A stretch of DNA of 64,000 nucleotides, from NCBI GenBank assembly GCA_944387845.1, contig CALXGH010000021.1, positions 1 through 64,000 on the forward strand, in the 5' to 3' direction. The translations under genes were made by a program, and so were the position numbers. This document shows, piece after piece, positions 11,792 to 62,911 of the stretch. Numbering within the stretch: position 1 is the first letter of the stretch; each line of letters starts with the position of its first letter. The stretch is from an uncultured Oscillospiraceae bacterium. Lineage in GTDB: Bacteria > Bacillota > Clostridia > Oscillospirales > Oscillospiraceae. The notes under the pieces were generated by a model. It worked only from the letters and a program-made list of their open reading frames with translations, was not told the origin of the DNA and made no database searches.

Positions 11792-14035
11792 TTAGATGGA
11801 CTCATGGAATGTGCGCTTGATTACTTCAAGCTGCTGTTCCCTGCTAAGGCGGTTAAAGTTTACCGCATAACCGGAAACTCGGATTGTCAAAGTAGGATAC
11901 TGCTCAGGGTGTTCCATAGCATCTAACAGCACCTGACGATCAAGTACGTTTACATTAAGGTGGTGAGCTCCCTGGATAAAGTAGCCATCCAGAATGGAGA
12001 CAAGGTTATGGACACGCTCTTCCAGGCTCTTTCCAAGTGCGTTAGGTACAATTGAGAAGGTGTTGGAAACGCCGTCCTGACATACACCGCGATATGGAAT
12101 CTTGGCAACGGAGTTAAGGCTGGCCAAAGCACCGTTTTCATCTCTGCCGTGCATCGGGTTAGCGCCAGGAGCAAAAGGTTCTCCAGCTTTGCGCCCGTCC
12201 GGTGTGCTTCCTGTCTTCTTGCCGTACATTACATTGCTGGTGATAGTCAGTGCGGAGAGTGTGTGGATAGCGTTGCGGTACAGTGGGTGCTTTTTCAGTT
12301 CAGCGGAGAAATAGGATACAATTTCAACGGCAATATCGTCTACGCGATCATCGTCATTACCGTATTTGGGGAATTCTCCTTCCACCTCAAAGTCAACGGC
12401 GATTCCCTGCTCATTGCGGATTGGGCGTACTTTTGCAAATTTAATAGCGGAGAGGGAGTCTGCGGCGATGGACAGACCTGCCACGCCAAAGGCTGCAAGA
12501 CGCTCCACAAGAGTGTCATGAAGGGCCATCTGGCTTGCCTCATAGGCATATTTGTCATGCATATAGTGGATGATATTTATCGTATCCACATAGAGTTCTG
12601 CAACATAGGACAGAACCTTCTTATAGTTTGTTAGGACTTTTGAATAGTTGAGCACCTCGTCTTCATCCCGCTGGATACCAGGAACAACCTGCATTCCCTT
12701 CTTTTCGTCAACGCCTCCATTGATGGCGTAAAGAAGGCTCTTTGCAAGATTTGCCCTTGCGCCGAAGAACTGCATCTGCTTGCCAACTGCCATTGCGGAT
12801 ACGCAGCATGCTATGCAGTAGTCATCGCCATAGAGAGGACGCATGATATCGTCGTTCTCATACTGAATGGAGTCAGTAATTACGCTCATTTTTGCACAAT
12901 AGTCTTTAAAGCCCTGGGGCAGATTCTGGCTCCACAGAACGGTCAGGTTCGGTTCCGGGGCAGTGCCCAGGTTTGTAAGAGTGTGGAGATAGCGGAAGCA
13001 TGTCTTGGTTACAAGTGTGCGACCGTCGATTCCCATGCCGCCGAGAGCCTCGGTAACCCATGTTGGGTCGCCTCCGAAGAGCTCATTGTACTCTGGGGTA
13101 CGCAGGTGGCGAACAAGACGGAGCTTGATAACAAACTGGTCGATAAGCTCCTGAGCGCCTTCTTCATCAAGAATTCCGCGATCCATATCACGCTGAATAT
13201 AGATATCCAGGAAGGTAGCGGTGCGGCCGAGAGAGGTGGCGGCTCCGTTGTTCTCTTTGACTCCGGCCAGGTAGCCTAAGTACAGATTCTGTACGGCCTC
13301 CCGTGCATTTTCTGCAGGGCGGGTTACATCACAGCCGTAACGGGCTGCCATGGAAGCCAGTTCCTGAAGGGCACGGATCTGCATATTTATTTCTTCACGC
13401 AGACGGATGAGCTCGTCAGTCATAGGGCCGTCCATTTCTTCAAGATCGCGCTTCTTTTCTTCGATGAGGAAGTCAGTACCGTACAGAGGTATGCGACGAT
13501 AGTCGCCTACAATACGTCCGCGGCCGTAGGCGTCAGGCAGACCAGTGAGAAGACCGGCGGTGCGGGCCAGACGTGTGCGCTTTGGATAGGCGTCAAACAC
13601 ACCTTCATTGTGGGTTTTGCGGTAAAGGTGGAAATGTTTGCGAATTTCTGGATCTAAAGTATAGCCATACTGCTCTAAAGCAGATTCTGCCATACGCAAG
13701 CCGCCGTAGAGGTTAACGATCCTCTTGAGAGGCGCATCTGTCTGAAGACCTACTATAACTTCGTTTTCTTTATCAATGTAGCCGGGTTCAAAATTGTCAA
13801 TACCGGATATTACTTTTGTTTCGACATCCAGAATTCCCTTTTTCATCTCCTCAAGAATCAGGTTGTGAGCCTGTTCCCACACCTTTTTAGTGCGAGGAGA
13901 AATGGGGGAGAGGAAGCTGTCGTCTCCAAGATAAGGTGTGTAATTTTTCTGTATAAAGTTTCGTACGTTTATGAGATGTCTCCACTCGCCAGTGTGAAAT
14001 CCCTGCCAATAGCTGCCGTTAACATCAATGCTCAT
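11792..14035 (-). CDS. pflB: Pyruvate formate-lyase (formate C-acetyltransferase)
   Basis: PFL is a glycyl-radical enzyme that cleaves pyruvate with CoA into acetyl-CoA and formate under anaerobic conditions. At 747 residues it is close to the 750-760 of the family. The two catalytic cysteines are adjacent in [13 protein letters not shown], and the radical glycine is in RVSGYAVNF, Gly about residue 722, 25 residues from the C-terminus as expected. The sequence RGIVGDYRR-like and GRGR motifs of the substrate pocket are also present. The ATG overlaps the stop of pflA by 4 bases (ATGA), so the two are translated together. Both are downstream of a ZTP riboswitch, so formate production is linked to folate and purine status. 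Confidence 0.96.
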
Positions 14036-14778
14036 AAATTTTCCTCCTCATTTTCTATGTGAGTTACTGTGTTGTTAATTCTTTTCTGCCAATCAATAAG
14101 GCTGTTCCCATCCATAGGCGGGACTCCTTCAAGGGGATAGGATATCCCCATCTCATGATACTTATGTACTCCTAATGTGTGGTAGGGTAATAGTTCTACA
14201 CGACGGATGTGCGAGATGGATTTGAGATAGTCTTCAAGGGATGCCAGGTGTTCATCACCATCGGTGAGGCCTGGCACTACAACGTGGCGGATCCACATTG
14301 GCACATGCAGTCTTTGTGCTGCTTCAAGGAAATGCTCCCACTGGCCACTTTCACGGCGGGTAATTTTTTGAAAGCCTTGCGGGGTATGCTCTTTGATGTC
14401 CATCAATATAAGGTCGGTATATTTCAGGATCTCTTCATAATCCCCCATACCGCAGCCGGCTGTATCCAAACAGGTATTAATTCCCTTCTGATGGCACAGC
14501 TTTAAACATTCCAGTAAAAATTCGGGCTGGAGCAGAGGTTCCCCTCCTGAGAAAGTTACGCCTCCCTCAGTGCCATAATAGGGTTTGAAGCGACACAGCT
14601 TCGCCACCAACTCTTCAGGTGTAATTTGCTGTGCCCGCTCGCCACGGATCTCCCAAGTATCAGGGTTGTGGCAGTACTGACATCGAAGGTTGCAACCTTG
14701 AAGAAATACAACTGTGCGAATACCTGGGCCGTCTACCAGGCCCATGCTCTCCACGGAATGAATGTACCCGATCGCCAT
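14032..14778 (-). CDS. pflA: Pyruvate formate-lyase activating enzyme (radical SAM)
   Basis: This radical S-adenosylmethionine enzyme installs the glycyl radical on PflB. The signature [11 protein letters not shown] (CX3CX2C, about residues 30-37) binds the [4Fe-4S] cluster, and [10 protein letters not shown] (about residue 77) is the SAM-binding GGE motif. The N-terminus [20 protein letters not shown] is typical of the family, and the 248-residue length fits. An excellent ribosome binding site (AAGGAGGG) sits just before the ATG. It is the first gene of the operon, placed before pflB instead of after it as in Escherichia coli. The leader contains the ZTP riboswitch, whose terminator ends about 20 bases before the ribosome binding site. 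Confidence 0.95.
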
Positions 14779-14813: not shown

Positions 14814-14918
14814 AAGGCCGACAGTCTGGGACCCTTTATGCCCAGACGGTCGGCCGATATTCACGTCGCACTCCACGTGGTTAATTCCACTTAAAACCGT
14901 CAGTTGTGCAACTACCGT
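14814..14918 (-). ncRNA. ZTP riboswitch (pfl motif) with terminator, leader of pflAB
   Basis: Read on the minus strand, the leader has all parts of the ZTP/ZMP-sensing pfl motif. P1 is GTTGCA (14912-14907) with TGCGAC (14870-14865); the conserved CAACTGACGG follows P1; P2 is a GTGG/CCAC hairpin (14890-14887 with 14880-14877); GTGGAGTGCGAC leads back into P1; and the downstream domain holds CCGTCTGGGCA (14849-14839), matching the family's CCGCCUGGGCA. The last part is also the 5' arm of a 15-bp terminator stem (14855-14841 with 14828-14814 region) followed by TTTTTGTTTTT. Binding of ZTP, a signal of low 10-formyl-tetrahydrofolate, would be expected to block the terminator and allow pflAB transcription. 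Known family biology; alignment was by eye. Confidence 0.9.
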
Positions 14919-29913: not shown

Positions 29914-30192
29914 ATGCAGAAAAAGATCCCTATGAGGCAGTGTACAGGCTGCCGTGAAATGAAACCGAAAAGAGAACTGATCAGGGTGGTGAGATCCGCC
30001 GAAGGCGAGATCAGTATTGACACAAGAGGAAAAAAGCCTGGACGGGGCGCCTATATATGCAACAGCCCTGAATGCCTGAAAAAGGCCATAAAATCAAAAG
30101 CTCTTGAGCGGGCTTTCGGGATCGCTATTCCAGATGAGATCTATCTGAGCCTCCAGCAGCAGATGGGAGTTGAAGAAGACGATCGATCTTAG
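29914..30192 (+). CDS. ylxR: YlxR family RNA-binding protein (RnpM)
   Basis: A 92-residue basic protein found between nusA and infB in most Firmicutes; the family binds RNA and is reported to act on RNase P. The signature is MRQCTGCREMKPKRELIRVVR (about residues 7-27; split cysteines CTGC), followed by DTRGKKPGRGAYIC and CLKKAIKSKALERAF. The start is at the ATG at 29914 with AAAGGGG upstream; a TTG 18 bases earlier is less likely. It overlaps the next gene by 23 bases. Confidence 0.92.
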   Translation: MQKKIPMRQCTGCREMKPKRELIRVVRSAEGEISIDTRGKKPGRGAYICNSPECLKKAIKSKALERAFGIAIPDEIYLSLQQQMGVEEDDRS

Positions 30193-30598
30193 AATTTTAG
30201 GTATAGCAAAAAAGGCGGGCTTTATTGAGGCCGGAGAAGAGACTGTGTCTGAATCGGCTGGGGCAGGAGCGGCAAAACTCATAATAATCGCCTCAGATTC
30301 AGGAGAGAGCACAAAGAAAAGGGCTAAAAGTGCTGCTGAAAAAAACAGCGTTCTGTGTGTGGAGGTGCCGGTGAGCAAGAGTGAACTGGGCCACTGCATA
30401 GGCAGAGGCGAGACCGGGATAGTAGCCGTAACGGATATGGGACTGGCCGCCAGCTTCGCTGAGAAAATCGCCAGTTTGAGCGAAGAATGCGCAAAGACGG
30501 CAAAAGAGCTCAAAGAGAGATTTGAAGATGAAAAACAAAAAAGGACCGGCGTTACGGCCCGCAGCATAAATGTTAAAGCAGGAAGAAGGAGGATTTAA
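30170..30598 (+). CDS. ylxQ: L7Ae-family RNA-binding protein (YlxQ-like)
   Basis: The L7Ae/L30e family binds kink-turns in RNA. This 142-residue chain has the family core: [18 protein letters not shown] (about residues 9-26), [39 protein letters not shown] (about 66-87) and an extra lysine-rich C-terminal tail of about 40 residues that is longer than the usual 100-residue YlxQ. The start is TTG at 30170; its ribosome binding site is adjacent, so coupling to ylxR is likely. It sits at the normal ylxQ position before infB. The family is also that of OapC, the kink-turn partner of OLE RNA, so a link to the RNA at 57684 is possible but not shown. Confidence 0.85.
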
Positions 30599-56729: not shown

Positions 56730-57599
56730 ATGAGAGAAGAACTTTTAAGGCTTAAAGAGCTTATAGATATGGAGCTTGAAAAATATTTCAAAGATGATCT
56801 TCCACAAAAAGAGCTTTTTGAAGCCATGAGATATAGCCTTCTGGCGGGAGGAAAGAGAATAAGAGGCGTGCTGGTTCTGGAATTCTGCCGTCAGAGCGGC
56901 GGAGATATAAATTCGGCGCTGCCGGTAGCCTGTGCGGTGGAGATGCTCCACGCTTATTCTCTTATACATGACGACCTGCCCTGCATGGATAACGATGACT
57001 TACGTCGTGGAAAGCCCACAAACCATATAGTTTATGGTGAGTGTACAGCTACTTTAGCTGGAGACGCTCTTCAGGCTGCGGCATTTGAAACAGTCCTTTC
57101 AGCTTCGCTAGAGCCGGAGAGGATAGCGGCGGCTGCCCGAGAACTGGCTTTTGCCGCCGGAGAGAAAGGAATATGCGGCGGTCAGTACCTTGATATGGCG
57201 GGAGAAGGAAAGAAGCTTTCTATTGAGGATGTAGAAAATATACACAGACTTAAAACAGCGGCAATGATAAAGGCGGCCTGCAAAATGGGTGTTATTGCCG
57301 GCGGAGGTACCGCAGAGCAGCTTGAGGCTGCAGAGGAGTACGCAAAAAGCGTGGGCCTTGCCTTCCAGATAAGGGATGATATCCTAGACTGCATATCTAC
57401 CACTGAGGAGCTTGGAAAGCCCGCCGGTTCTGACGAGAAGAATGCAAAAAGCACCTATGTATCCGTTTTTGGCATGGAAAAATGTAAGGAAATCGTGGAA
57501 GTTGAGACAAAAAAAGCAGAAAATGCTATAAGAGGAAAATTTTGCAATGTTGATTTTCTGCTAAAGCTGGCGGAATATTTGGCTGGCCGAAAGAGCTAA
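56730..57599 (+). CDS. ispA: Farnesyl diphosphate synthase (polyprenyl synthetase)
   Basis: IspA condenses dimethylallyl and isopentenyl diphosphates to geranyl and farnesyl diphosphate. The 289-residue chain has the first aspartate-rich motif LIHDDLPCMDNDDLRRGKPTNH (about residues 79-100; pieces HDDLPCMD and DDLRRGKP), GGQYLDMAGE (about 151) and the second motif FQIRDDILDC (about 214). Gly-Gly-Lys-Arg (AGGKRIRG) lies near residue 40. The start is the ATG at 56730 with GGAAGG upstream. The last gene before the non-coding RNA at 57684, it shares a pathway with dxs. Confidence 0.95.
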   Translation: MREELLRLKELIDMELEKYFKDDLPQKELFEAMRYSLLAGGKRIRGVLVLEFCRQSGGDINSALPVACAVEMLHAYSLIHDDLPCMDNDDLRRGKPTNHIVYGECTATLAGDALQAAAFETVLSASLEPERIAAAARELAFAAGEKGICGGQYLDMAGEGKKLSIEDVENIHRLKTAAMIKAACKMGVIAGGGTAEQLEAAEEYAKSVGLAFQIRDDILDCISTTEELGKPAGSDEKNAKSTYVSVFGMEKCKEIVEVETKKAENAIRGKFCNVDFLLKLAEYLAGRKS

Positions 57600-57630: not shown

Positions 57631-57659
57631 TTGAAAAATGAATATAATTCATATATAAT
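57631..57659 (+). promoter_or_regulatory. Strong promoter of OLE RNA, with a dyad in the spacer
   Basis: TTGAAA (57631-57636) and a perfect TATAAT (57654-57659) are 17 bases apart. The spacer contains ATGAAT-ATA-ATTCAT (57638-57652), a perfect inverted repeat. The transcript would begin near 57666, about 18 bases before the start of the RNA. Confidence 0.75.
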
Positions 57660-57683
57660 GAATAATCAATAAGATATATATTT

Positions 57684-58309
57684 GGCGGCGCAGTATCCTA
57701 GTCAGATCTGCCGGCTCTCAAGAAGGGCCTAAAAATCCTTTAAAGGGCACAACTGTGAAGTCCCTTGTGTTTGCCTTGAACGCCCAGTTTGGGGTGGATG
57801 CTGGGGGGAAGCTGGAAAGCTTGCATTTGTAGGGCGATTTCTAATGGCATAGAAGACCCGACCCTGCAAGTGTGGAGACCCGCCCTCGTGCGAAACGAAA
57901 CGCGAAAGTACATCGACTTTCGTACGGAGCGGGATTAAACCTGCAATGCGGTGCGTAAGCGACTTTTTTCGCCTGACGCTGTGTGCAGAGTAGCCTGCCT
58001 TGAGTGGAATCTGCGGATAGAGCATAAGGCCGGGCTTGTCATGGCCACGACGAGTCTTGGCATCGCTCTTGAAATATTTTCTGCAAAAGAGGATAGGAGT
58101 CGGTTTGACTGCAGTGGAAAACACCTAGGCTGTCTAATATGGGCAAGTAAGGGATTGCGGTACGGTCTGAGTGGCAGTCGGGTAGCAGAAAGTGGCAACG
58201 TTCTGAACGAAGTTTTAAAGGGAAACCGCCCTGATCGGCAACGAAGGGTAGCTTCGGGGGAAATCCAACCCGTACCTAAGCCGTAAGATTTACTTTATTT
58301 GCTGCCGCC
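57684..58309 (+). ncRNA. ole: OLE RNA (ornate, large, extremophilic RNA)
   Basis: OLE RNA is a roughly 600-nt structured RNA of some Firmicutes that forms a membrane-associated complex with OapA and is linked to tolerance of short-chain alcohols, cold and Mg2+. Evidence: the region has no credible gene; its ends are complementary (GGCGGC at 57684-57689 with GCCGCC at 58304-58309), giving a closing stem and a length of 626; internal hairpins include AAGCT-GGAA-AGCTT (57809-57822, GNRA tetraloop) and CGAAAGT/ACTTTCG (57903-57909 with 57916-57922); it has a near-consensus promoter; and it sits exactly between ispA and the oapA-dxs genes, the known OLE locus. The next gene is oapA. A covariance-model search is the missing proof. 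Confidence 0.92.
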
Positions 58310-58434
58310 TATATAATCAAAAGTTATGTGTCCATTTCGTGGACCTGAAGCGTCGGTTTGAACCTTGGCTTGATATAATCAAACTGATGAGTTCGGGCGG
58401 AAATGGGCTTTTTATTTGGGGGAAATTGTGAATA
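58310..58434 (+). other. Spacer between OLE RNA and oapA
   Basis: Holds a small hairpin GTCCA-TTTCG-TGGAC (about 58331-58345) and the oapA ribosome binding site GGGGGAAA. No T run after the OLE 3' end, so OLE and oapA may be one transcript that is processed or terminates inefficiently. Confidence 0.5.
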
Positions 58435-58986
58435 ATGAAAGCTAAATCTAATAGGTTGTGGATTGTTCAGATAATTATTTTGAGCATAGCCATGTCGATG
58501 ACCTTTAGTATAATTTCCGAGGCTGTGCTTGACGGAGCAGGCTATGCCATGGCGTTTTCCGTTTTGGCGGTTTTTATTATAATCGGTATAGTTTTTGATA
58601 TAATCGGCGTTGCTGTAACCAGTTCTCAGGAGGCGCCTTTTCACTCTATAGCCTCGCATGGTGAAAGAGGTGCGGGAGAGGCCATAATGCTTCTGAGAAA
58701 CGCGGAAAAGGTTTCCAGTATATGCAATGACGTTGTGGGTGATATATGTGGAATCATGAGTGGTACCACCAGCGCCGTTATAGTTGTAAATCTGGCTTCT
58801 GGCCTTGGCTGGAAGGAGGCTGTTTTGGCTGTACTCATTTCCGGTATGGTAGCCGGCCTCACCATCGGCGGCAAAGCCCTCGGCAAGAAAGTTGCAATAA
58901 ACAGCAATGTCAAAATCGTTTTGGCGGTAGGTAAGGTTATAAACTGGTTTGGCGGAATATTTAGAAGAAAAAGAGGCAAAAGTTAA
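58435..58986 (+). CDS. oapA: OLE-associated protein OapA
   Basis: OapA is the integral membrane protein that binds OLE RNA and holds it at the membrane. The 183-residue chain has about four spans (residues 9-28, 36-60, 110-130 and 133-152), with the conserved acidic and glycine-rich stretches SQEAPFHSIASHGERGAGEA (about 66-85) and VVGDICGIMSGTTSAVIVVN (about 101-120), and a strongly basic tail FGGIFRRKRGKS suited for RNA contact. Its place between OLE and dxs is invariant in OLE-bearing species. Site GGGGGAAATTGTG precedes the ATG. Outside the OLE locus the family has no clear relatives that I recognise. Confidence 0.9.
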   Translation: MKAKSNRLWIVQIIILSIAMSMTFSIISEAVLDGAGYAMAFSVLAVFIIIGIVFDIIGVAVTSSQEAPFHSIASHGERGAGEAIMLLRNAEKVSSICNDVVGDICGIMSGTTSAVIVVNLASGLGWKEAVLAVLISGMVAGLTIGGKALGKKVAINSNVKIVLAVGKVINWFGGIFRRKRGKS

Positions 58987-60834
58987 TTGAGTATCTTGGA
59001 AAAAATTAATTCTCCGGAAGATATGAAAAATCTGAATAAAGAAGAACTTTATGCCCTCGCTTATGAGATTCGTCAGTTTCTTATAGATAATGTTTCAAAA
59101 ACAGGCGGACATCTTGGCGCGAACCTTGGTATTGTGGAGACTACTATCGCAATACATAAAGTCTTTGACACGTCCAGGGATAGGCTGGTTTTTGATGTGG
59201 GACATCAGTGCTATGTGCACAAGATACTTACAGGGAGAAAAGATAGTTTTGACACTTTGCGAAAGTTCGGCGGTATAGCCGGATTTCCCAAACCCTGTGA
59301 GAGTGAACATGACGCGTTTATCGCCGGTCATGCCTCAAATTCTGTGTCTGTGGCATTGGGAATGGCCAGAGCTAGAACCATCAGAGGAGAAGATTACAGC
59401 GTGGTTGCGCTGATTGGAGATGGTGCTCTAACAGGCGGCACGGCCTATGAGGGCCTTTCTGACGCTGGAGACAGCGGAGAGCCTATGATCGTTATATTAA
59501 ACGATAACAGAATGGCTATTGACTTCAATGTGGGCGGTATAGCCAGAAGTCTTGCCCACCAGAGGCTGAAGCCTGGGTATATGAAGTTCAAGAGGGCTTA
59601 TAGAAGTGTGGTTTCAAAAGTACCAATCTTCAGAGGCCCTCATAAAGTGCTGCATAAAGTTAAAACTGCCGTTAAAGAGGCATTTTTACCATGTAGTATG
59701 TTCGAGGAGATGGGATTTGAATATTTGGGACCGGTAAACGGCCATGACATAAATATGATGATATATGTTCTCTCCCTGGCAAAGAGCATGAATAAGCCGG
59801 TGCTTATACACGCCATAACAAAAAAAGGCAAGGGCTATTCCTTTGCTGAGGCGGATCCCAGTAGATACCATTCAGTACCACCATTTAATAAAAATGAAGG
59901 TGTACAGAAGAGAGAGGATAAAGACTTTTCTGCGGCTTTCGGTGAAAAACTGTCGTCTCTGGCAGATGAAGACAGCCGTATATGCGCCATAACCGCAGCC
60001 ATGGGGCGCTCTACAGGGCTTGGGCCTTTTTACAGGAAACACCCTGATCGATTCTTTGACGTAGGTATTGCGGAGGAACATGCAGCGGCCATGTGCGCTG
60101 GTATGGCAAAAGAGGGGGCTATCCCTATCTTTGCTGTCTATTCCACATTTTTGCAAAGATCTTATGATATGCTTATTCATGATGTGGCAATATCCAATCT
60201 CCATGCAGTTTTTGCTGTAGATAGAGCGGGGCTTGTAGGAGCGGATGGAGAGACCCACCATGGTGTCTTTGACGTATCATACATATCCAGCGTTCCAAAT
60301 TTCAAAATTTATGCACCTGCCAGTTTCCAAGAAACTGAAGATATGCTTGAGAAAACTATAAAACAGGATAACTGTCCTGTTGCTATAAGATACCCGAGAG
60401 GTAAAGAAGGCCGTTATATAGACGGCGGCTGCGACAGCTCGAAAATTATTCGAGAGGGTAGAGATTTTACTATTATAACTTACGGTATATCGGTAAACAC
60501 AGCTCTGGATGTGGCGGAAATACTGGAAGCAAAAGGTATTGATATTGAGATAGTAAAGCTGGGCAGGATATGGCCGGTGGATTATTCGCATATTATACCG
60601 TCCCTTGAAAAAACAAACCGTGTGCTGTTTCTTGAAGAGACGGTAATGAGCGGCTGTATAGGCGAGAAGGTAAGTTGTGAGATATTAAAGAGAAGTATTC
60701 CACTGAAGAGCGTTTTGTATAAGAATCTGGGCCATGGTTTTGTTCAGCATGGAGATATAAAAAGTCTTTATAAGCTTTGTGGTATCGATGCTGAAAGCGT
60801 AGCCCTGGCGATTGCGGAGGAATTTGAGAAATGA
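58987..60834 (+). CDS. dxs: 1-deoxy-D-xylulose-5-phosphate synthase
   Basis: DXS condenses pyruvate with glyceraldehyde-3-phosphate, the first step of the MEP isoprenoid pathway. The 615-residue thiamine-diphosphate enzyme has TGGHLGANLGIVETTIAIH (about residues 40-58), VFDVGHQCYVHKILTGR, the cofactor motif GDGALTGGTAYEGLSDAG (about 145-162, ending ILNDN), and the transketolase-like half with FDVGIAEEHAAAMCAGMAKEG (about 358-378). It starts with TTG right after the oapA stop. The overlap with tlyA is ATGA. Only this enzyme and ispA of the isoprenoid pathway are in the window. Confidence 0.96.
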   Translation: MSILEKINSPEDMKNLNKEELYALAYEIRQFLIDNVSKTGGHLGANLGIVETTIAIHKVFDTSRDRLVFDVGHQCYVHKILTGRKDSFDTLRKFGGIAGFPKPCESEHDAFIAGHASNSVSVALGMARARTIRGEDYSVVALIGDGALTGGTAYEGLSDAGDSGEPMIVILNDNRMAIDFNVGGIARSLAHQRLKPGYMKFKRAYRSVVSKVPIFRGPHKVLHKVKTAVKEAFLPCSMFEEMGFEYLGPVNGHDINMMIYVLSLAKSMNKPVLIHAITKKGKGYSFAEADPSRYHSVPPFNKNEGVQKREDKDFSAAFGEKLSSLADEDSRICAITAAMGRSTGLGPFYRKHPDRFFDVGIAEEHAAAMCAGMAKEGAIPIFAVYSTFLQRSYDMLIHDVAISNLHAVFAVDRAGLVGADGETHHGVFDVSYISSVPNFKIYAPASFQETEDMLEKTIKQDNCPVAIRYPRGKEGRYIDGGCDSSKIIREGRDFTIITYGISVNTALDVAEILEAKGIDIEIVKLGRIWPVDYSHIIPSLEKTNRVLFLEETVMSGCIGEKVSCEILKRSIPLKSVLYKNLGHGFVQHGDIKSLYKLCGIDAESVALAIAEEFEK

Positions 60835-61628: not shown

Positions 61629-62465
61629 ATGAAAAAGATACTTATTTGCTCAAACCCCGAAAGGGACAAGGGATTTAAAACTGCCGAGAAAGTTAAGAAA
61701 ATTTTAGATGGCAGTGCCGAGGGAATAATATGTTCTGTGGATTACAGCAACCTGCGGGCAGACAAAGAGAAAATCTCCAAAATGATTTCAGACTGTGAAT
61801 TTGCAGTAGCAATCGGCGGAGACGGAACTGTTATGCATGTCGTACGTGCTGCAGCGCCATACGGGAAAGCTGTTATAGGAATAAACAAAGGTAAGAAGGG
61901 CTTCCTTGCAGAACTCGACGAATCCAGTATAGAAATGATTTTAAACGCTACCCAGGGCGATTACATTTTTGACAAGAGAATGATGTTGGATGTTACAGTG
62001 TTTCGCAATGGCGAGAAGTTGTTTTCGGATTTTGCCGTAAACGACGCGGCTGTAAGTGGTTTTTCAAGAATGCTGGATATCAGCGTTTTTGTTGATGGTA
62101 TAAAAATGACCCAGATTTATGGCGATGGCCTGGTAATAGCATCGCCCACAGGGTCTACGGCGTACTCCATGGCAGCCGGAGGTCCGATAGTTGAACCAGA
62201 GGCGGAGAACTTCATTATAACTCCTATATGCGCCCATTCTCTGGGAGCAAGGCCTTATGTTTTAGCGCCGGACAGAGAGATACTCGTCATTATAAATAAT
62301 TTGGCCAACAAAAACGCATATGTGTCGGCAGACGGATGTGAAGGAGTAAAACTTCAATCTGGAGATATTATAAAAGTCAGAAGATCAAGACATAAAATGA
62401 GATTTATAAAAGTTACTGATAAGAGCTTTTATGAGACTGTAATAGAAAAATTGGGTGAGAGATAA
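61629..62465 (+). CDS. nadK: NAD kinase
   Basis: NadK makes NADP from NAD with ATP. The 278-residue chain has the signature IGGDGTVMHVVRAA (about residues 60-73), INKGKKGFLAEL (about 87-98) and SPTGSTAYSMAAGGPIV (about 173-189) with the conserved NDAA motif (VNDAAVSGFSRM) before it. It directly follows tlyA and overlaps argR by 1 base. It supplies the NADP pool used by the Nfn complex elsewhere in the window. Confidence 0.95.
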   Translation: MKKILICSNPERDKGFKTAEKVKKILDGSAEGIICSVDYSNLRADKEKISKMISDCEFAVAIGGDGTVMHVVRAAAPYGKAVIGINKGKKGFLAELDESSIEMILNATQGDYIFDKRMMLDVTVFRNGEKLFSDFAVNDAAVSGFSRMLDISVFVDGIKMTQIYGDGLVIASPTGSTAYSMAAGGPIVEPEAENFIITPICAHSLGARPYVLAPDREILVIINNLANKNAYVSADGCEGVKLQSGDIIKVRRSRHKMRFIKVTDKSFYETVIEKLGER

Positions 62466-62911
62466 TGAAGAACAACAGACAGAAGATAATACTTGATATA
62501 ATTTCAAACAACGATATCGAAACGCAGAATCAGCTTATAAAAGCCCTAGAGGATGCAGGCGTAAAGAGCACCCAGGCCACGATTTCCAGGGACATAAAGG
62601 AGCTTCGACTCATAAAAGAGCTTACGCCTAAAGGCACATACAGATATGCTACTGCTATAAAAGAAGGTACCGACTATATGGATAAGCTCCACACAATTTT
62701 CAAGGAATGTGTTGTATCGGTAGAGCAGGCGCAGAATCTTATCGTCATAAAAACCTTACCTGGTCTCGCAAACGCGGCCAGTAGTGCCCTTGACAACATG
62801 AATATCAAGGACCTTGTAGGTACTCTGGCAGGCGATGACACAAGTTTTATCGCCATGATCGATACTGAAGCGGCCAAGAGATTTTGTAAGGAAATCAGAG
62901 AATTTATGTGA
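62465..62911 (+). CDS. argR: Arginine repressor ArgR
   Basis: ArgR controls arginine synthesis and breakdown; it is a hexamer that binds arginine. The 148-residue chain has an N-terminal winged helix with DIETQNQLIKALEDAG and STQATISRDIKELRLIKEL (about residues 18-54), a linker, and the C-terminal domain with IKTLPGLANAASSALDNMNIKDLVGTLAGDD (pieces TLPGLANAASSALDN and LVGTLAGDDTSF) that binds arginine, Asp-Asp being the arginine-contact site. It starts one base before the nadK stop ends. Site AGAGA is modest. Confidence 0.94.
   Translation: MKNNRQKIILDIISNNDIETQNQLIKALEDAGVKSTQATISRDIKELRLIKELTPKGTYRYATAIKEGTDYMDKLHTIFKECVVSVEQAQNLIVIKTLPGLANAASSALDNMNIKDLVGTLAGDDTSFIAMIDTEAAKRFCKEIREFM

Follow-up and report, generated by a model that had tools for sequence, protein, structure and literature searches.

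A full-length OLE RNA with an additional J5/6 hairpin near the OapC site, and no OapC gene found, in an uncultured Oscillospiraceae bacterium

Positions 57,684 to 58,309 of contig CALXGH010000021.1 from an uncultured Oscillospiraceae bacterium (assembly GCA_944387845.1) raise the question of whether an OLE RNA is encoded there and, if so, with which protein partners it might operate. The region was studied within the first 64,000 nucleotides of the contig, a stretch that is referred to here as the window. OLE RNAs, whose biochemical function is, to our knowledge, not yet established, are among the largest structured RNAs of bacteria. An earlier note, made from the letters of the window, had proposed that this gene-free interval between ispA and oapA holds such an RNA, with complementary ends and a promoter of its own. 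In our assessment there is a probability of roughly 85% that the region is a full-length OLE RNA belonging to a ribonucleoprotein particle (RNP) of the known type, transcribed from its own promoter, which works without the protein OapC and has kink-turn (k-turn) 1b as its resting fold.

The identity of the RNA can be stated plainly. A search with Rfam cmscan, on which the earlier identification was to stand or fall, matched the OLE model RF01071 with 417.9 bits (gathering score 50; E-value 2.4e-119) over model positions 1-616 of 616; the elements P7-P9 are covered by this match, and none of them is shortened or missing. The segment 57669-58324 is hence a genuine full-length member of an already known RNA class, and the interval 57684-58309 is the same RNA measured from its closing stem. 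It occurs once in the whole 1.56-Mb assembly (1,555,521 bases in 68 contigs; 97.6% complete). The elements that define it are the following:

57669-58324, forward strand: OLE RNA (RF01071), full length, as delimited by Rfam cmscan.
57684-57689, forward strand: 5' strand of the closing stem, GGCGGC.
58304-58309, forward strand: 3' strand of the closing stem, GCCGCC.
57631-57659, forward strand: promoter-like site of the OLE RNA, TTGAAA-17-TATAAT.

The two strands of the closing stem pair with each other in the minimum-energy fold, and the outer ends of this helix lie exactly at 57684 and 58309, where the earlier note had put them. Pairing of the ends over at least 6 bp recurs in 100 of 109 relatives, compared with a mean of 60 and a maximum of 72 for shuffled partners, and the sequence of the helix varies among these relatives while the pairing is kept (for example GCGGCGGC/GCCGCCGC, AGACGGC/GCCGTCT and ATAGTGGC/GCCACTAT). 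The OLE region as a whole has a folding z-score of -3.2 relative to shuffled sequences. The promoter-like site, which the earlier note had likewise pointed out, matches the consensus at 11 of 12 positions and is situated a few bases upstream of the 5' end of the RNA. Open reading frames do exist within the OLE RNA; they overlap each other on both strands and were dismissed as chance occurrences. That the region precedes oapA and is separated from it by a terminator-like hairpin would also be expected if it were a mere leader or terminator of an oapA-dxs transcript and contained no OLE RNA at all; this explanation is refuted by the full-length covariance-model match, and we give it virtually no credence.

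The protein partners of OLE RNAs OapA and OapB are both encoded in this genome. The gene for the first of them directly follows the RNA:

58435-58986, forward strand: oapA, encoding an OLE-associated membrane protein of 183 amino acids, named from its homologues next to OLE in relatives, from CNNM matches and from the resemblance of its model to CorB.

The predicted protein is 33-66% identical to proteins encoded beside OLE in relatives, and oapA adjoins the RNA in about 100 of them. When searched alone, the 183-residue protein gave no Pfam match above the cut-off, its own resemblance to the CNNM family being weak; 18 of 21 relatives match this family (best E-value 2.9e-8). Its AlphaFold model (predicted local distance difference test, pLDDT, 80; predicted template-modelling score, pTM, 0.69) most closely resembles CorB, a CNNM transporter (Z-score 11.9; root-mean-square deviation 2.4 over 129 residues), in keeping with the already published OapA-CNNM relationship (PMC11332333). 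On the strength of these sequence comparisons and this model, we take the protein at 58435 to be OapA; it behaves as the earlier note had expected, and nothing was found that would mark it as unrelated to OapA. OapB is a protein of 93 amino acids that is encoded between map and infA (G000:C4:15195-15473) and matches the solved OapB structure 7k9b (E-value 3e-7). A Pfam KOW search gave no hit for it, and an absence of OapB was discarded once the gene had been located by its position and by this PDB match; OapB was found in 52 of the 57 OLE-containing genomes of the order. The absence of the ribosomal protein bS21 was considered and rejected as well, since its gene (rpsU) is present.

Of the 147 genomes sampled from the order Oscillospirales, 57 carry an OLE RNA and about 60% show none; the latter include several genomes of the same family. 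From this patchy distribution one could suppose that the OLE RNA studied here is a decaying remnant on its way to being lost. Such a view is hard to reconcile with the high-scoring match over the full model, the retention of every conserved segment, the covarying closing stem, the intact oapA and oapB genes and the good promoter; we consider it very improbable. Judged by OapA, the nearest named relatives are Oscillospiraceae, mostly metagenome-assembled genomes (MAGs) from the rumen, the goat omasum and the rabbit gut, together with Sporobacter and Papillibacter. The cultured relative Sporobacter termitidis DSM 10068 likewise has an OLE RNA of the insert form described below, and no OapC was found in it. 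This kinship makes the host likely to be a host-associated mesophile, and the earlier guess of a mesophilic gut-type anaerobe has thus gained in plausibility. The special interest that had been attached to such a host is diminished: OLE RNAs from the uncultured gut clades TANB77 and RF39 have been published (PMC11332333), so that an OLE RNA in a gut-type host is not new in itself. At one further locus (L124), in a MAG whose title gives Mycoplasmatota, an OLE RNA and oapA occur with the J4a/5 loop UGU, a short J5/6 and no OapC; this may be a matter of binning or naming.

The only unusual part of this OLE RNA is a hairpin in the junction J5/6, near the OapC site. Two models exist for the k-turn in this part of the molecule: in k-turn 1a, J4a/5 combines with J5/6 (PMC9723947), while in k-turn 1b it combines with J6/7, and the latter arrangement, not that with J5/6, is formed in the dimer analyzed by cryo-electron microscopy (PMC12286853; discussed in PMC12054373). 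The assignment of single nucleotides to the k-turns that is used below is our own register, derived from the published text. The pertinent elements of the window are:

57748-57760, forward strand: k-turn strand of J4a/5, CACAACUGUGAAG, in which the loop L1-L3 reads UGU in place of the usual GAU.
57807-57824, forward strand: extra J5/6 hairpin AAGCU-GGAA-AGCUU (57809-57822) with an outer G-C pair, which takes the place of the UUAAGG strand of k-turn 1a.
57824-57873, forward strand: P6 region with the helix CAUUUGUAGGG/CCCUGCAAGUG, without a CCUCC anti-Shine-Dalgarno mimic.
57874-57878, forward strand: GGAGA of J6/7, the partner strand of k-turn 1b.

In the Rfam alignment, this RNA has 13 additional nucleotides, located between P5 and P6. 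With J5/6 filled by a hairpin, k-turn 1a cannot form here in the usual way from J4a/5 and J5/6. The C-G and the tandem GA nucleotides of k-turn 1b are kept, with GGAGA in J6/7, and the nucleotide that corresponds to U84 is an A. A comparison of 123 OLE RNAs (this one and 122 others), in which a J5/6 of 21 nt or more was counted as long, placed 60 sequences, the present one included, in the long and 63 in the short class. Nearly all long junctions form a stem in a common position, and 38 of the 60 reach p<=0.05 relative to shuffles, the pieces being short. The sequence of this stem varies with the pairing kept (AAGC/GCUU, AGGC/GCCU, AGAUGG/CCAUCU), and neither its loops nor its lengths show conservation. 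UUAAG, which makes up the J5/6 strand of k-turn 1a, occurs in 41 of the 63 short forms and is missing from all 60 long forms; the GGAGA motif of J6/7 occurs in all 123 RNAs, a few of them with one base changed. In addition, the J4a/5 loop deviates from GAU (UGU, GUU, UAU, UGC or UUU) in 42 of the 60 long forms versus a single one of the 63 short forms. One family of loci (f8; L003, L004 and L006) has a different J5/6 hairpin (UAACACC..GGUGUUG), has kept the GAU loop and encodes OapC; its hairpin is apparently of separate origin. The text of the OLE papers that were consulted makes no reference to a hairpin form of J5/6 and names only variants with an altered P7-P9, although the figures or supplements of these papers may show it. 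The P6 region deserves a comment of its own. A CCUCC mimic has been reported in P6 of the H. halodurans OLE RNA, and mimic mutants with preserved pairing still bound bS21 (PMC12054373). None of the 123 OLE RNAs has this motif in P6 (57832-57873 in the present one), and we accordingly rejected its loss as a peculiarity of this host.

What, then, has become of OapC? In relatives, the gene for this protein (OapC/YbxF) lies between rpoC and rpsL. The corresponding gap measures about 233 bp here and contains no OapC gene; a whole-genome search for L7Ae-family proteins and a reading of the rpsL junction found none elsewhere in the assembly, the sole L7Ae-family protein detected being YlxQ:

30170-30598: ylxQ, L7Ae family, between ylxR and infB.

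The absence of OapC alone is not unusual, because only about 45% of the OLE-containing species possess it (PMC11332333). One may ask whether YlxQ, an L7Ae paralogue from the nusA-infB operon, stands in for OapC on this OLE RNA, given that it is the only member of its family found in the genome and that, according to Baird 2012 as cited in PMC9723947, Bacillus YlxQ binds k-turns in vitro. In H. halodurans, however, YlxQ was unable to replace OapC (PMC11332333), and we regard such a substitution as unlikely. Two loci with canonical OLE RNAs (L089 and L100, the latter named Candidatus Faecousia) have also lost the OapC gene from the rpoC-rpsL gap, and the gap retains a leader sequence similar to that found upstream of OapC in relatives.

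A possible connection between the hairpin and OapC loss was assessed across the comparison set. Calls for OapC combined L7Ae searches of whole genomes with a reading of the rpsL junction; for some of the named genomes, presence was judged by where in the profile the L7Ae match fell, and it was verified at those junctions that were retrieved. In raw counts, OapC is missing from 24 and present in 22 genomes with a long J5/6, against 5 and 46 with a short one (Fisher 5.6e-6), and the contrast is sharper still for the J4a/5 loop (altered, 24 without and 9 with OapC; GAU, 5 without and 59 with; Fisher 7e-11, again raw counts). The OLE RNA studied here falls into a well-supported tree group of 22, all with a long J5/6; no OapC was seen in this group, and its absence is confirmed for 15 of the 22. 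Among randomly drawn pairs that differ, which are few, loop change and OapC loss go in the same direction (1.2 versus 0.0 on average). An order of events in which the hairpin arose first, the loop changed next and OapC was lost last would fit these sequences.

Several points weigh against our interpretation. The insert form is found in 22 genomes that still encode OapC (13 with a GAU loop, 9 with an altered one), and 5 canonical genomes are devoid of it; a rule that the hairpin causes OapC loss was rejected for this reason, and tree-based pairs give it no support either. The changes on the OLE tree number only 4 for the insert, 6 for the J4a/5 loop and 6 for OapC, so that the cases are not independent, the link of hairpin and loop to OapC cannot be separated from ancestry, and the pair test is without power. 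In our register, this RNA has A-A where k-turn 1b has its U84-A pair. With an assembly of this completeness and contig number, an OapC gene outside the rpoC-rpsL gap might have escaped detection. A rival explanation is that hairpin and OapC loss are unrelated: the hairpin would be a neutral spacer, acquired by an Oscillospiraceae ancestor at a junction that tolerates it, and the loss of OapC, a protein with other roles as well, would be a separate event. The small number of independent changes, which keeps tests on independent pairs from reaching significance, the many insert forms with OapC and the widely varying loops and stem lengths of the hairpin are all in its favor, whereas the skewed raw counts for the altered loop and the common direction of the differing pairs are not; we deem it quite possible, at somewhat short of even odds.

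An RNP without OapC is what is most likely at work in this lineage. In the particle that we envisage, the OLE RNA would be transcribed from its own promoter and, as homology suggests, fold into the known five-way-junction core and dimerise. OapA would hold it at the membrane and OapB would join its 3' domain, while J4a/5 paired to J6/7, i.e., k-turn 1b, would provide the resting fold in which the RNP can work without OapC. By analogy to Halalkalibacterium halodurans, the particle would be a membrane RNP that responds to stress (cold, alcohol, Mg2+, poor carbon sources); the stress role, the membrane location and the dimer have been described in work on H. halodurans, C. acetobutylicum and C. 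botulinum (PMC12265935, PMC12286853, PMC10898510). The broader notion that Oscillospiraceae carry an OapC-independent OLE RNP, in which k-turn 1a is abolished by the J5/6 hairpin and J6/7 is the only pairing partner left to J4a/5, is advanced tentatively, with the odds leaning against it. If true, it would amount to a natural experiment showing that the working fold conserved in OLE RNAs is k-turn 1b rather than 1a, and that OapC is lost after its own site has eroded. With the 1a strand replaced and the 1b strand kept in every sequence examined, this lineage makes the two k-turn models separable on natural RNAs, and it indicates which of the OLE partners are dispensable.

The genes around the RNA are arranged in the order nusB, xseA, xseB, ispA, OLE, oapA, dxs, tlyA, nadK, argR and recN, the last of which was named by its position and its RecN/SMC domain. 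The ispA-OLE-oapA-dxs order, which the earlier note had recognized as the known OLE locus, is borne out here and is common in relatives. The features flanking the RNA and oapA are:

56730-57599, forward strand: ispA, polyprenyl (farnesyl) diphosphate synthase (PF00348, NF045485).
58328-58416, forward strand: terminator-like branched hairpin between OLE and oapA, GUCCAUUUC...GAAAUGGGC and then U5 (fold z-score -3.1).
58987-60834, forward strand: dxs (TIGR00204).

We take the branched hairpin to be a lineage-specific terminator-like structure; its sequence is not conserved in relatives. A string CUGAUGAG..GAAA had prompted us to consider a small ribozyme or riboswitch, for which Rfam gave only a chance match, and no canonical hammerhead was recognized by inspection. 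An alternative small hairpin (GUCCA-UUUCG-UGGAC) shares the 5' strand of the branched hairpin, and a switch is therefore conceivable. At two other loci (L076 and L032), the 3' closing strand of the OLE RNA, GCCGCC, doubles as the opening strand of a very long hairpin in the OLE-oapA gap that ends in a T run; terminator and OLE closing stem thus share a strand there. OLE shares its gene cluster with argR (62465-62911), whose product has been named as an unpublished candidate for OLE binding (PMC12054373). Elsewhere in the window, a ZMP/ZTP riboswitch (14833-14917, reverse strand) directly precedes pflA-like (14032-14778, reverse strand) and pflB-like (11792-14035, reverse strand) genes, both named from their own sequences.

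The full-length OLE RNAs (RF01071) of H. halodurans and Clostridium acetobutylicum have the same architecture, conserved segments and closing stem as the RNA described here, and they likewise have oapA adjacent, ispA and dxs as neighbors and OapB encoded in the genome. What sets the present RNA apart from them is its extra J5/6 hairpin, its J4a/5 loop UGU in place of GAU and a P6 without the CCUCC mimic; in addition, no OapC gene was found here. OapA has the same CNNM membrane fold as the Mg2+ transporters of the CNNM/CorC/MpfA type; unlike these, it is linked to OLE and has neither CBS nor CorC domains. OLE variants 1 (TANB77) and 2 (RF39) share with the present case an uncultured host-associated clade, a small genome and the missing OapC; in these variants, P7-P9 are shortened or missing, the OapB site is often absent and OapB itself mostly so (Fernando and Breaker 2024; PMC11332333). 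The Oscillospiraceae bacterium, by contrast, has both P7-P9 and OapB, and its OLE RNA is altered by the J5/6 insertion.
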